39,678 bases of DNA from an uncultured Armatimonadota bacterium (GTDB lineage Bacteria; Armatimonadota; Fimbriimonadia; Fimbriimonadales; GBS-DC), in contig CAKZQI010000299.1 of assembly GCA_937139515.1 (NCBI GenBank), forward strand, positions 1 through 39,678. The letters run 5' to 3'. The translations under genes were made by a program, and so were the position numbers. The number at the start of each line of letters is the position of its first letter. Position 1 is the stretch's first letter. Below the pieces are notes generated by a model, which was not told where the DNA came from, did not search any database, and saw only the letters and a program-made list of their open reading frames with translations. Shown one piece after another: positions 31,154 to 34,395 of the stretch.

Positions 31154-32620
31154 TCAAGCGGAACGCACTAAAACGGTTTCTGTCTCAATTGCCTCCCAGT
31201 GCGCGGGCGTGGGCAGGCGCACAAGGAAGGTCGTGCCCTGCCATGGCTCCGACTCTACGCTGATACTCCCGTGATGTTTCTGAACCGCACGCCAGACCAG
31301 CGTCAGCCCGATGCCAGACCCGCCTTGTTTCGTGGTGATGGCTTGCTGGAACAGCGTAGAACGAACCTCTTCGGGCATACCCGGTCCTGTGTCCCGAATC
31401 ACCAGCACCGTTTCACCGTCCGACTCGTACCAATCAAAAATCACCTTCCGAGTGCCATCCCAGTCTTTCAGAACCTGAATAGCGTTGAGAGTGAGGTTCA
31501 AGTACAACTGCATCAGATAGCGCCGATCAGCATAGACCTGAAGGTTGACGGGGAGACGGCACTCAATCTGCACGGGCGGGTTGAGCAGGTGAGCCCCAGA
31601 AAGCCGCTGAACCTCTTGGACAATCTGAGCGGGCGCCACCCACTCCAGCTGGACCTCGCCTTCCTCTTTGGTCATGGCTAACAGGTCCATCAGGTAGCCG
31701 TGTGCCTTGCGAGTGGTTAGCCCGATGCTTTGGAAATAGTCAGCGGGGTCAAACTCGGGGTCGCGTTGGAGCCGACGAACGCCCACATCTGCCAGCGATT
31801 GCACTGTGTTGAAGTAGTTCTTGAGGTCATGCACGATACCTCGCACAATCTGACCGATTGTGCTGAGCCGTTCCTGTTCAACCATTTGACGGTAGGCTTG
31901 CTGGAGTTGCTCGTTTGACTGTTCAAGGTCGTGGTTCAGTTGGTAGATTTGTGCATTGAGACGAATGGAGAGCGCCAAAGCCAACACAAAGTAGGACAGG
32001 TTCCAAGTCGGCACCAGCGAGAGGAACCCGTAGTACACCGCCATATCCACCAGAATAAGCGGTATCATATATGCCAGTGTTCCGATGAGAATTTTGTCGT
32101 GTAAGTTCTTTTGTCCCCAACGGTGGATGGCACGCACATACACAAACAGAAAGGCAGAGAGATACACCAGTGAAGCCAGTTGACCCAACACAGTGCTTTC
32201 CGCGCGCAGGTAGTAGACACCTATCAAGGGCAGGTAAAGAGCGTCCATCGTGGGCAGCAACACCAAGCCAAATGGAGCCAGAATGAACAGAAGTCCCGTC
32301 AGCCCCAGCAAAAAGCGCCCCAGAGGCTTAATCCCTAAATTCAACAGCTCATTCAAGATACAGACGAACAGCATGCCACAGACCAAAGAGCTAAGAAACT
32401 GTCCTAAGGCAAACAGATAACTGTTAGCAGTGGGAGTGCTGTCGGGACGGTACAGCTGATAATCGGAGAGGCTAAATAGAAGACTACTGACCAGAAAGCC
32501 CACTAAACGCCAGTTTAGCCCCCGCTGGCGGGACAAGAACGCCTGCAGAGTGTGGTGTACAATCAAATACCCGTACAGCCCCACGGCAAGCCACAACAAT
32601 GCCTGTGTCCATCCGCTCAC
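31154..32620 (-). CDS. Membrane-bound sensor histidine kinase
   Basis: The protein has 488 residues. Residues 1-220 contain about seven hydrophobic segments (around 6-25, 38-52, 66-90, 102-122, 145-163, 177-197 and 206-220), a membrane sensor with no obvious extracellular domain. A coiled linker at 222-255 leads to the H box GIVHDLKNYFNTV with the phospho-acceptor His264. The catalytic domain has the N box LYLNLTLNAIQVL (Asn379), the G1 box RDTGPGMP, TTKQGGSGIGLTLVWRAVQKHHG and a final FLVRLP strand. The GTG start is supported by GGGAGG about 8 nt upstream. No response regulator is adjacent, so it is an orphan. The signal is unknown. Confidence 0.92.
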   Translation of the reverse strand: MSGWTQALLWLAVGLYGYLIVHHTLQAFLSRQRGLNWRLVGFLVSSLLFSLSDYQLYRPDSTPTANSYLFALGQFLSSLVCGMLFVCILNELLNLGIKPLGRFLLGLTGLLFILAPFGLVLLPTMDALYLPLIGVYYLRAESTVLGQLASLVYLSAFLFVYVRAIHRWGQKNLHDKILIGTLAYMIPLILVDMAVYYGFLSLVPTWNLSYFVLALALSIRLNAQIYQLNHDLEQSNEQLQQAYRQMVEQERLSTIGQIVRGIVHDLKNYFNTVQSLADVGVRRLQRDPEFDPADYFQSIGLTTRKAHGYLMDLLAMTKEEGEVQLEWVAPAQIVQEVQRLSGAHLLNPPVQIECRLPVNLQVYADRRYLMQLYLNLTLNAIQVLKDWDGTRKVIFDWYESDGETVLVIRDTGPGMPEEVRSTLFQQAITTKQGGSGIGLTLVWRAVQKHHGSISVESEPWQGTTFLVRLPTPAHWEAIETETVLVRSA

Positions 32621-32783: not shown

Positions 32784-33719
32784 ATGAGCCAAATTTCACC
32801 TGATGAACGCGCGAAGCGTCGTGCCAGCACGATTTCACTGTTTTACAACCTGTTAGCAACGACCATCAAACTGGTGGGCGCGGTGTTGACAGGTTCAGTA
32901 AGCCTGCTTAGCGAGGCGCTCCACTCGGCGACCGATGTGGTGGCGTCGCTGTTTGCCTATATTGGGGTGCGGGTCGGTTCAGTGCCCCCCGACGAGAACC
33001 ATCCCTACGGACACGGCAAGGTGGAAACGCTTGCGGGGTTCGGCGAGTCGGTGCTTCTTATTTTGATAGTATTCTACTTATTGTTTGAGGGGGTGCGTCG
33101 CCTCTTTCAAGGGAGCGAGTTGGCAAGCTTGGAAGTCGGGATGGGCGTGATGCTTTTTTCTACGATTACGAGCTTGATAGTGGGGCTGTATGTTTCTAAA
33201 GTGGGCAAGCGGACGCGCTCGTTGGCGCTCCAGTCAAACGGTCAGCACCTGATGATTGATTTCTGGACGAGCGCAGGGCTGGTGGTGGCGCTGGGAGTGA
33301 TGCGGTTCACGGGGTGGCTATGGATTGACGCGGTTTTGGCAATCGCGATTGCGCTGTGGCTCCTGCGGGGGGCTTACCGTTTGGCCCATCAGGCGTTCCA
33401 CGAGTTGATAGACCACTGTCTGCCCGAATCAGAAATCGCCCAGATTGACACGATATTGCGGGGAATGCCGGGCGTGCTGAGCTATCACCAGTTGCGCACG
33501 CGCCGTTCGGGAGCGATGCGCTATATTGACCTGCATATCGTGGTTCCAAGCGATTGGAACCTCGAAACGGCGCATAAAGTGGCAGACCAGTTGGAGAAGC
33601 AGATAGAGAGCGTGCTTGCGCCTGCGCAGTGCGTCATCCATGTAGACCCCTATGACCCTGAGCGTGCGAATGAGCGCCGAATAGCGATTGCCAGCAGTTG
33701 GGAACGACAAACCCCTTGA
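32784..33719 (+). CDS. Cation diffusion facilitator metal exporter
   Basis: This 311-residue protein is a CDF antiporter that exports divalent metals (Zn, Fe, Mn, Cd or Co) from the cytoplasm. Six membrane segments are visible in the first 215 residues. The transport site appears as SEALHSATD (His47 and Asp51) in helix 2 and SNGQHLMIDFWTS in helix 5. HPYGHGKVE (73-81) is the family signature. The C-terminal cytoplasmic domain from about 215 has the ferredoxin-like fold segment GVLSYHQLRTRRSGAMRYIDLHIVV and ends near HVDPYDPE. The His/Asp pattern in helices 2 and 5 does not settle metal preference. The ATG lacks a ribosome site; TATGAT and TATAGC lie 9-20 nt upstream. Its stop codon lies inside the promoter of the str operon. 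Confidence 0.93.
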   Translation: MSQISPDERAKRRASTISLFYNLLATTIKLVGAVLTGSVSLLSEALHSATDVVASLFAYIGVRVGSVPPDENHPYGHGKVETLAGFGESVLLILIVFYLLFEGVRRLFQGSELASLEVGMGVMLFSTITSLIVGLYVSKVGKRTRSLALQSNGQHLMIDFWTSAGLVVALGVMRFTGWLWIDAVLAIAIALWLLRGAYRLAHQAFHELIDHCLPESEIAQIDTILRGMPGVLSYHQLRTRRSGAMRYIDLHIVVPSDWNLETAHKVADQLEKQIESVLAPAQCVIHVDPYDPERANERRIAIASSWERQTP

Positions 33720-33745
33720 CTTTTTTGTAGTGGATTGGCTATAAT
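33716..33745 (+). promoter_or_regulatory. Strong sigma-70-type promoter of the str/S10 operon
   Basis: TTGACT at 33716-33721 and TATAAT at 33740-33745 are separated by 18 nt. Both boxes are at or near consensus, the best promoter in the window. The -35 box overlaps the stop codon of the CDF exporter. Expected transcription start is about 33752, giving a leader of about 225 nt before rpsL. Confidence 0.88.
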
Positions 33746-33751
33746 ATACTC

Positions 33752-33978
33752 CGCTGGGGCGTAGCCTCTTTTGGGGCTATGCTGGAGGTTCATCTGCACA
33801 ATGAACCGGGCTAACATCACGGAGCGTGGAACCACACGCAGGAAGAGGTTTGCGAGGCGACACCGGTACTGGTGTTGCGAACGCGTCTGAGTGCGCCCTA
33901 CAAGGGCGCGAAACGAAGCCTCTCCCCTGCGCGTGAGAGGCTTCTTTTTACGCTCCAGCAACAAAGGATGGAGGCACT
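33752..33978 (+). ncRNA. Structured rpsL leader RNA (candidate cis-regulator or processed small RNA)
   Basis: The 227-nt stretch encodes no protein but folds by eye into six consecutive hairpins: 33759-33782 (8 bp), 33787-33807 (7 bp, GGTTCAT/ATGAACC), 33824-33839 (5 bp, GCGTG/CACGC), 33857-33878 (8 bp, one G-U), 33893-33909 (7 bp, triloop ACA) and 33916-33943 (9 bp) followed by CTTTTT. The last is a textbook intrinsic terminator placed before the ribosome site of rpsL, so this may be an attenuator. The 5' segment AGCCTCTT (33763-33770) can pair with GAGAGGCT (33935-33942), the right arm of the terminator, giving a possible mutually exclusive fold. A ribosomal protein or another signal might choose between folds. 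Alternatively this is a stand-alone small RNA with its own terminator. No known Rfam family was recognised. Confidence 0.6.
33916..33949 (+). terminator. Intrinsic terminator/attenuator in the rpsL leader
   Basis: AAGCCTCTC (33916-33924) pairs perfectly with GAGAGGCTT (33935-33943) around a 10-nt loop, followed by CTTTTT. It lies 29 nt before the rpsL start and well after the strong promoter. If fully active it would silence the whole ribosomal operon, so regulated read-through is likely. Confidence 0.75.
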
Positions 33979-34395
33979 ATGCCAACGATTAACCAACTGG
34001 TACGGAAGGGTCGTAAACCGAAGGTGAAGAAGACGAAGTCGCCCGCGTTGCAGGCGTGTCCTCAGCGACGGGGCGTCTGTACGATTGTGCGCACGATGAC
34101 GCCGAAGAAGCCGAACTCGGCACTTCGTAAAGTGGCGCGTGTACGCCTCACGAACGGCATCGAAATCACCGCCTACATTCCGGGTATCGGACACAACCTG
34201 CAGGAGCACTCGGTGGTGCTGGTACGCGGGGGGCGTGTGAAGGATTTGCCAGGCGTGCGCTACCACATCGTTCGGGGCACGCTGGACTGTGCAGGCATTG
34301 AGAACCAGCCGACGACCCGTAACCAAGACCGGCGCATGCAGGGTCGCTCCAAGTACGGCTCCAAGCGCCCCAAAGCTGCAAAAGCCAAGAAGTAA
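33979..34395 (+). CDS. rpsL: 30S ribosomal protein S12
   Basis: This 138-residue protein sits at the decoding centre of the small subunit and affects accuracy and streptomycin response. It begins [13 protein letters not shown] and contains [20 protein letters not shown] (with the lysine equivalent to E. coli K42) and [18 protein letters not shown] (with the lysine equivalent to K87 and the aspartate that is often methylthiolated). These are the streptomycin-sensitive residues. A Lys/Ala-rich tail of some ten residues extends the C-terminus. GGAGG at 33970-33974 fixes the start. It is first in the operon rpsL-rpsG-fusA-tuf and is not preceded by rpoC, unlike the usual order. Confidence 0.98.

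Follow-up and report, generated by a model that had tools for sequence, protein, structure and literature searches.

The region upstream of rpsL in an uncultured Armatimonadota bacterium of the little-studied order Fimbriimonadales raises the question of how transcription into its str operon is governed. Ribosomal protein operons are classically viewed as controlled by their own proteins, which bind the mRNA. Leader-peptide (ribosome-mediated) attenuators control the trp, his and ilv amino acid operons, and resistance genes as well as amino acid genes are known to be attenuated in this way. A preliminary description of the locus, made from the sequence, reported a promoter followed by a structured, terminator-bearing leader and suggested that the leader could respond to S12, S7 or EF-Tu or could be an independent small RNA. 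The stretch of DNA analysed here, hereafter the window, comprises 39,678 nucleotides and is one entire contig of its genome (G000:C299). We have little doubt that the leader genuinely attenuates the operon in cis and, on the sequence comparisons and folding models given below, consider it probable that attenuation of the str-S10 operon is gated by a ribosome on an arginine-rich upstream open reading frame (uORF). This conserved short ORF, which overlaps a strand of the antiterminator, was absent from the preliminary description.

The leader and its homologues

Features of the region are collected in Table 1. The promoter had been described as near-consensus, which was borne out, and it ranks best among the four promoters found between positions 32000 and 39678. 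Downstream of the -10 box, the window (33740-33756) and most relatives have a GC-rich stretch reminiscent of stringent-control promoters. The leader had been credited with about 225 nt and six hairpins, the last being an intrinsic terminator directly before rpsL; we measured 227 nt and found six local hairpins, P1 to P5 and the terminator, which lies 29 nt upstream of rpsL. From its first nucleotide to the terminator end (198 nt), the leader has a folding energy of -88.8 kcal/mol, compared with -71.5 ± 4.2 kcal/mol for dinucleotide shuffles (z -4.1; 0 of 200 as good). Downstream, rpsL is followed by rpsG, fusA, tuf, an S10-like ORF and rplC, and the leader may control this merged str-S10 cluster. 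The str genes continue straight into the S10-operon genes between 34900 and 39504. The leader had not been recognised beforehand as a known type, and indeed it belongs to no known Rfam family: none of the 4227 families scanned at the gathering score matched it, the sole hit in the window being a tRNA elsewhere, and at relaxed cut-offs its hits were sub-threshold, unrelated and at chance level.

Table 1. Features of the rpsL leader region, with positions in the window.
Feature	Position	Strand	Remarks
Promoter TTGACT-18-TATAAT	33716-33745	+	11/12 consensus bases; nearly invariant at homologous loci of relatives
5' leader of the rpsL-rpsG-fusA-tuf-(S10) operon	33752-33978	+	227 nt
Hairpin P1	33758-33783	+	GGCGTAGCC..GGCTATGCT
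GGAGG, candidate uORF ribosome-binding site	33784-33788	+	12-14 nt before ATG, beyond optimal
Hairpin P2	33787-33807	+	GGTTCAT (33787-33793) with ATGAACC (33801-33807); 98.9% of cells paired
uORF, predicted leader peptide	33801-33890	+	MNRANITERGTTRRKRFARRHRYWCCERV, then stop; 29 aa; arginine-rich
Hairpin P3, putative anti-antiterminator	33824-33839	+	GCGTG (33824-33828) with CACGC (33835-33839)
Antiterminator, 5' strand	33833-33851	+	CAC-A-CGCAGG-A-AGAGGTTT; inside uORF codons 11-17
Hairpin P4	33857-33878	+	Arginine-rich uORF end; four pairs with two-sided changes
Hairpin P5	33892-33910	+	Directly 3' of the uORF stop; 83% of cells paired
Intrinsic terminator	33915-33949	+	Stem GAAGCCTCTC / GAGAGGCTTC, then TTTTT; 100% of counted cells paired
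Antiterminator, 3' strand	33916-33935	+	Terminator left arm and loop
Conserved segment ACGCTCCAGC	33950-33959	+	3' of the terminator
Short hairpin CTCCA..TGGAG	33953-33973	+	Covers the rpsL Shine-Dalgarno GGAGG (33970-33974)
rpsL (ribosomal protein S12)	33979-34395	+	First gene of the putatively controlled operon

Homologous leaders were found in 13 Fimbriimonadales genomes from three genera of one family, as one copy per genome and always before rpsL. Eleven genomes of a sister genus carry homologues that are about 70% identical, and the thirteenth homologue (L033), from a third genus of the same family, is more divergent; there the P1 stem is retained though its sequence differs. The cation-efflux transporter gene located upstream in the window is beside no other copy checked. 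A core covariance model run against 113 genomes of the order returned the 13 copies and no other convincing one, and weak hits in G016 (two examined) were dismissed as second copies of the element, lying inside protein genes. Furthermore, a search of 291 genomes of the phylum with the start-codon-hairpin pattern gave no rpsL-linked copy elsewhere; the hits in other families lie away from rpsL and were rejected as leader copies. No similar uORF was found in other families of the Fimbriimonadales. In three genomes of the same family (G004, G013 and G017) rpsL was not found by the Pfam model, probably due to assembly gaps. In a further genome of the family (G002, locus L030) the leader is of another kind; some 85-170 nt upstream of rpsL, much where the uORF lies in the other leaders, it contains the arginine-rich ORF MPRQKMPGRGQGWRRRNASRNRLDKG. 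It is without a clear Shine-Dalgarno sequence (SD) or antiterminator and was left out of the count.

Terminators in front of rpsL are more widespread. Among the 53 loci of the order outside the 12-genome core set (L030, L033, L037 and L040-L089), 42 have an intrinsic terminator at most 110 nt before rpsL, where 3.4 were expected from shuffles, and attenuation of the rpsL operon thus looks general in the order. The leaders in these 42 upstream regions are mostly unlike the window type. Unlike the order-wide terminators, the uORF-bearing leader is, judging by the sequences compared, special to part of one family.

Two exclusive folds

The preliminary description foresaw two exclusive folds, one of them formed by pairing of a 5' segment, AGCCTCTT, with the right arm of the terminator, and recommended a covariance comparison of related leaders. 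This comparison revealed compensatory changes in both of two mutually exclusive folds. The notion of two exclusive folds therefore stands, but the conserved antiterminator is a different one, in which the strand at 33833-33851 pairs with that at 33916-33935. In the window, AGCCTCTT and the right arm are able to pair (-12.8 kcal/mol, equalled by 15 of 200 shuffles), but this pairing is not conserved: relatives have AGCCATT or AGCCAGTT, mostly no better than shuffles, and we discarded this switch.

In the terminated fold, consisting of P2-P5 and the terminator, 96.1% of the cells are paired and eight pairs show two-sided changes, a number reached by none of 500 shuffles. P3 has 98.4% of its cells paired and two pairs with two-sided changes. 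For the antiterminator fold, 91.2% of the cells are paired, three pairs and four cells show two-sided changes (19 and 1 of 500 shuffles, respectively), and the covariation score observed was reached by 1 of 500 shuffles. The antiterminator duplex amounts to -27 to -33 kcal/mol in 12 of the 13 leaders, each value being reached by 0-24 of 500 shuffles; that of L012 is no better than shuffles. When strands were swapped between species, the duplex became weaker for L001, the leader of the window, and for L033, which diverge most among the copies that have a good antiterminator. Formation of the terminator excludes the antiterminator, and so does formation of P3, part of the strand being common to both. 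L012 (G014), the most divergent copy in the main genus, retains the uORF and an identical terminator loop. Its antiterminator has apparently been lost, which would fit a switch in decay or one that has been rewired.

Conservation extends to the segment ACGCTCCAGC, which has three possible pairing partners: the 5' end of the leader, GCTGGGGCGT (10 bp), the SD of the uORF and that of rpsL. The first of these pairings (about 10 bp, -19 to -22 kcal/mol in 11 of 13 leaders, absent in L012 and L033) is without covariation support (75 of 500 shuffles) and was not retained as a supported pairing; the sequence itself is conserved. A hairpin over the rpsL SD is predicted in all 13 leaders.

The conserved reading frame

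The uORF is open in all 13 leaders and encodes 27-29 amino acids, with ATG and stop at the same place throughout, TGA being swapped for TAA in L012. Its length is only 84, 87 or 90 nt, while the flanking segments change by single bases, and it ends 83-90 nt before rpsL. Internal stops are found in frame 1 in all 13 sequences, in frame 2 in nine, and in frame 0 in none. The substitution score is 501 for frame 0 versus -557 and -1081 for the other frames. A permuted-column null reached the frame-0 score in 2 of 300 cases and, with a codon-based alignment, in 5 of 300; with six lineages only, frame 0 failed to beat frame 1 and the null reached its score in 13 of 300. In all members with a good duplex, the 5' strand of the antiterminator is located at ORF offset 25-31.

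Outside the main genus the encoded peptide shows little conservation, and the three uORF peptides tested had no match in Pfam and NCBIfam. Each peptide contains 7-13 arginine and lysine residues, mostly late in the ORF, and part of the arginine content is a consequence of hairpin P4. There is no conserved codon run at codons 3-6. The uORF start lies in P2, which sequesters the start codon and part of the uORF SD. Since this SD is distant from the ATG and the start is embedded in a stem, initiation is probably weak or controlled, and translation of the uORF may be weak.

To relate ribosome position to folding, eight leaders were folded at equilibrium, in a non-kinetic treatment, with a fixed 30-nt ribosome footprint placed at each codon. 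With the modelled ribosome on codons 9-17 the terminator formed with a probability of about 0.9 or more in almost all cases, and with the ribosome at codons 4-6 the antiterminator was favoured in most leaders. When no ribosome was modelled, typical leaders of the main genus adopted the antiterminator and those of L011 and L033 the terminator; the leader of the window was mixed at 37 °C (terminator 62, antiterminator 31) and mainly in the antiterminator fold at 60 °C. Hence the basal polarity would differ between species. The common rule in these models is that mid-uORF ribosome occupancy means termination.

Proposed mechanism and alternatives

The location of the antiterminator strand inside a conserved uORF suggests that the sensor is a translating ribosome, and the earlier suggestion that the leader responds to binding of S12, S7 or EF-Tu loses ground accordingly. 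We propose that P2 would hide the uORF start codon and limit ribosome loading. A ribosome over about codons 9-17 would mask the antiterminator strand, so that the terminator would form and transcription would stop before rpsL. If the ribosome were instead held at the first codons, the strand would stay free, the antiterminator would take the left arm of the terminator and RNA polymerase would read through; in most leaders, the outcome with no ribosome would be the same read-through into the operon. P3 would compete with the antiterminator as an anti-antiterminator, and the small downstream hairpin would additionally cover the rpsL ribosome-binding site. The signal would most likely be translational status, namely ribosome availability at the uORF start or the speed of elongation over arginine codons. 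Arginine itself may be the signal, an argument from composition only. We put forward more tentatively, as a possibility worth considering, that the uORF is a dedicated sensor of translational capacity operating with no ribosomal protein repressor, moving ribosomes shutting the str-S10 genes off and scarce or early-stalled ones switching them on.

A different arrangement would be an attenuator whose terminated fold is stabilised by a product of the operon, be it S7, S12 or another one, that binds in the P1/P2 or P3 region, on the pattern of L10(L12)4 and L20 in Bacillus; the uORF would then be incidental. P1 and P2 are indeed conserved stems upstream of the switch, the rpsL attenuators of other phyla are discussed in connection with S7 in the accessible text of PMC2965389, and the accessible part of PMC10931766 describes a B. 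subtilis rplJL leader in which a set of anti-antiterminator, antiterminator and terminator is bound by ribosomal protein. We nevertheless regard this explanation as unlikely, since no Rfam ribosomal protein leader matches, 10-mers common with the 16S locus occur at chance level, and protein binding would not require an in-frame uORF that overlaps the antiterminator and is kept in nearly all members. Mimicry of 16S through such common 10-mers was rejected, 82 of 200 shuffles also having one. The terminator could also be constitutive and partial, passing a fixed fraction of read-through, with an alternative pairing that has no regulatory role. The terminators of the 42 other loci stand before rpsL without recognisable common leaders, hence a terminator alone may suffice; the compensatory changes in both mutually exclusive folds and the position of the antiterminator inside a conserved reading frame speak against this reading, which we consider improbable. 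The other earlier suggestion, an independent small RNA, would have its end at the terminator and leave rpsL to read-through or to another promoter. It would suit the strong promoter and the compact structured transcript of about 198 nt with its terminator end but is very improbable, as the element occurs once per genome and always adjoins rpsL though the upstream gene changes, its conservation extends past the terminator through ACGCTCCAGC to the rpsL ribosome-binding site, and no comparably strong promoter-like site was found before rpsL.

If gating by a translating ribosome is true, it would provide direct feedback from translation to the synthesis of S12, S7, EF-G, EF-Tu and the products of the S10-operon genes. 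It would also offer a testable mechanism for the widespread rpsL leaders that, in the available sections of Naville & Gautheret (PMC2965389), have no common sensor, and within the literature covered such a leader would have no precedent in Armatimonadota. The parts are known singly, as protein-sensor attenuation and leader-peptide attenuation; their combination here would be new. In this literature, which mostly leaves out subscription journals, no str or S10 operon was found to have a uORF-gated attenuator, a negative result that does not establish novelty.

Comparison with known systems

The Pelagibacter rpsL motif (Meyer et al. 2009, PMC2704228) resembles the present leader in being a structured RNA before rpsL in a merged str-S10-spc cluster. 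It differs by a bulged P1 with a three-stem junction, has been reported from Pelagibacter and marine metagenomes alone (PMC2704228) and, according to the portion of PMC2965389 at hand, fails the terminator criteria of that study. In E. coli, S7 controls the same operon as the one considered here, and as far as the accessible part of PMC10931766 goes, the control is translational, is located in the rpsL-rpsG intercistronic region and does not work through attenuation upstream of rpsL. The same part of that source gives B. subtilis rplJL and infC as examples of attenuation by protein sensors. The rplJL leader is like the present one in preceding a ribosomal protein operon and in its anti-antiterminator, antiterminator and terminator; its sensor is L10(L12)4 and, unlike in the present leader, no uORF is described for it in that part of PMC10931766.

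Attenuators in rpsL leaders were described in Listeria, Xanthomonas, Pseudomonas and Rickettsia (Naville & Gautheret 2010, PMC2965389), and the accessible text of that paper cites rpsL attenuator predictions by Merino & Yanofsky, reports no globally conserved feature among rpsL attenuators and also presents hisS leader peptides. The layout before rpsL, which had been called unrecognised, is thus not without counterparts in other phyla, but the rpsL attenuators in this text are without the present design. They share with our leader a terminator directly before rpsL, an alternative antiterminator and a lineage-specific sequence. No leader ORF is described for them in the sections of PMC2965389 available, where S7 is discussed, whereas here the antiterminator strand lies in a start-sequestered uORF.

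The leader is similar to leader-peptide attenuators in its 5' short ORF overlapping a strand of the switch, in its exclusive antiterminator and terminator and in the proposed control by ribosome position. Unlike in the trp, his and ilv attenuators, the early stall position lacks a series of identical control codons, the operon controlled would be one of ribosomal proteins and elongation factors, and a start-codon hairpin would limit loading of the uORF.
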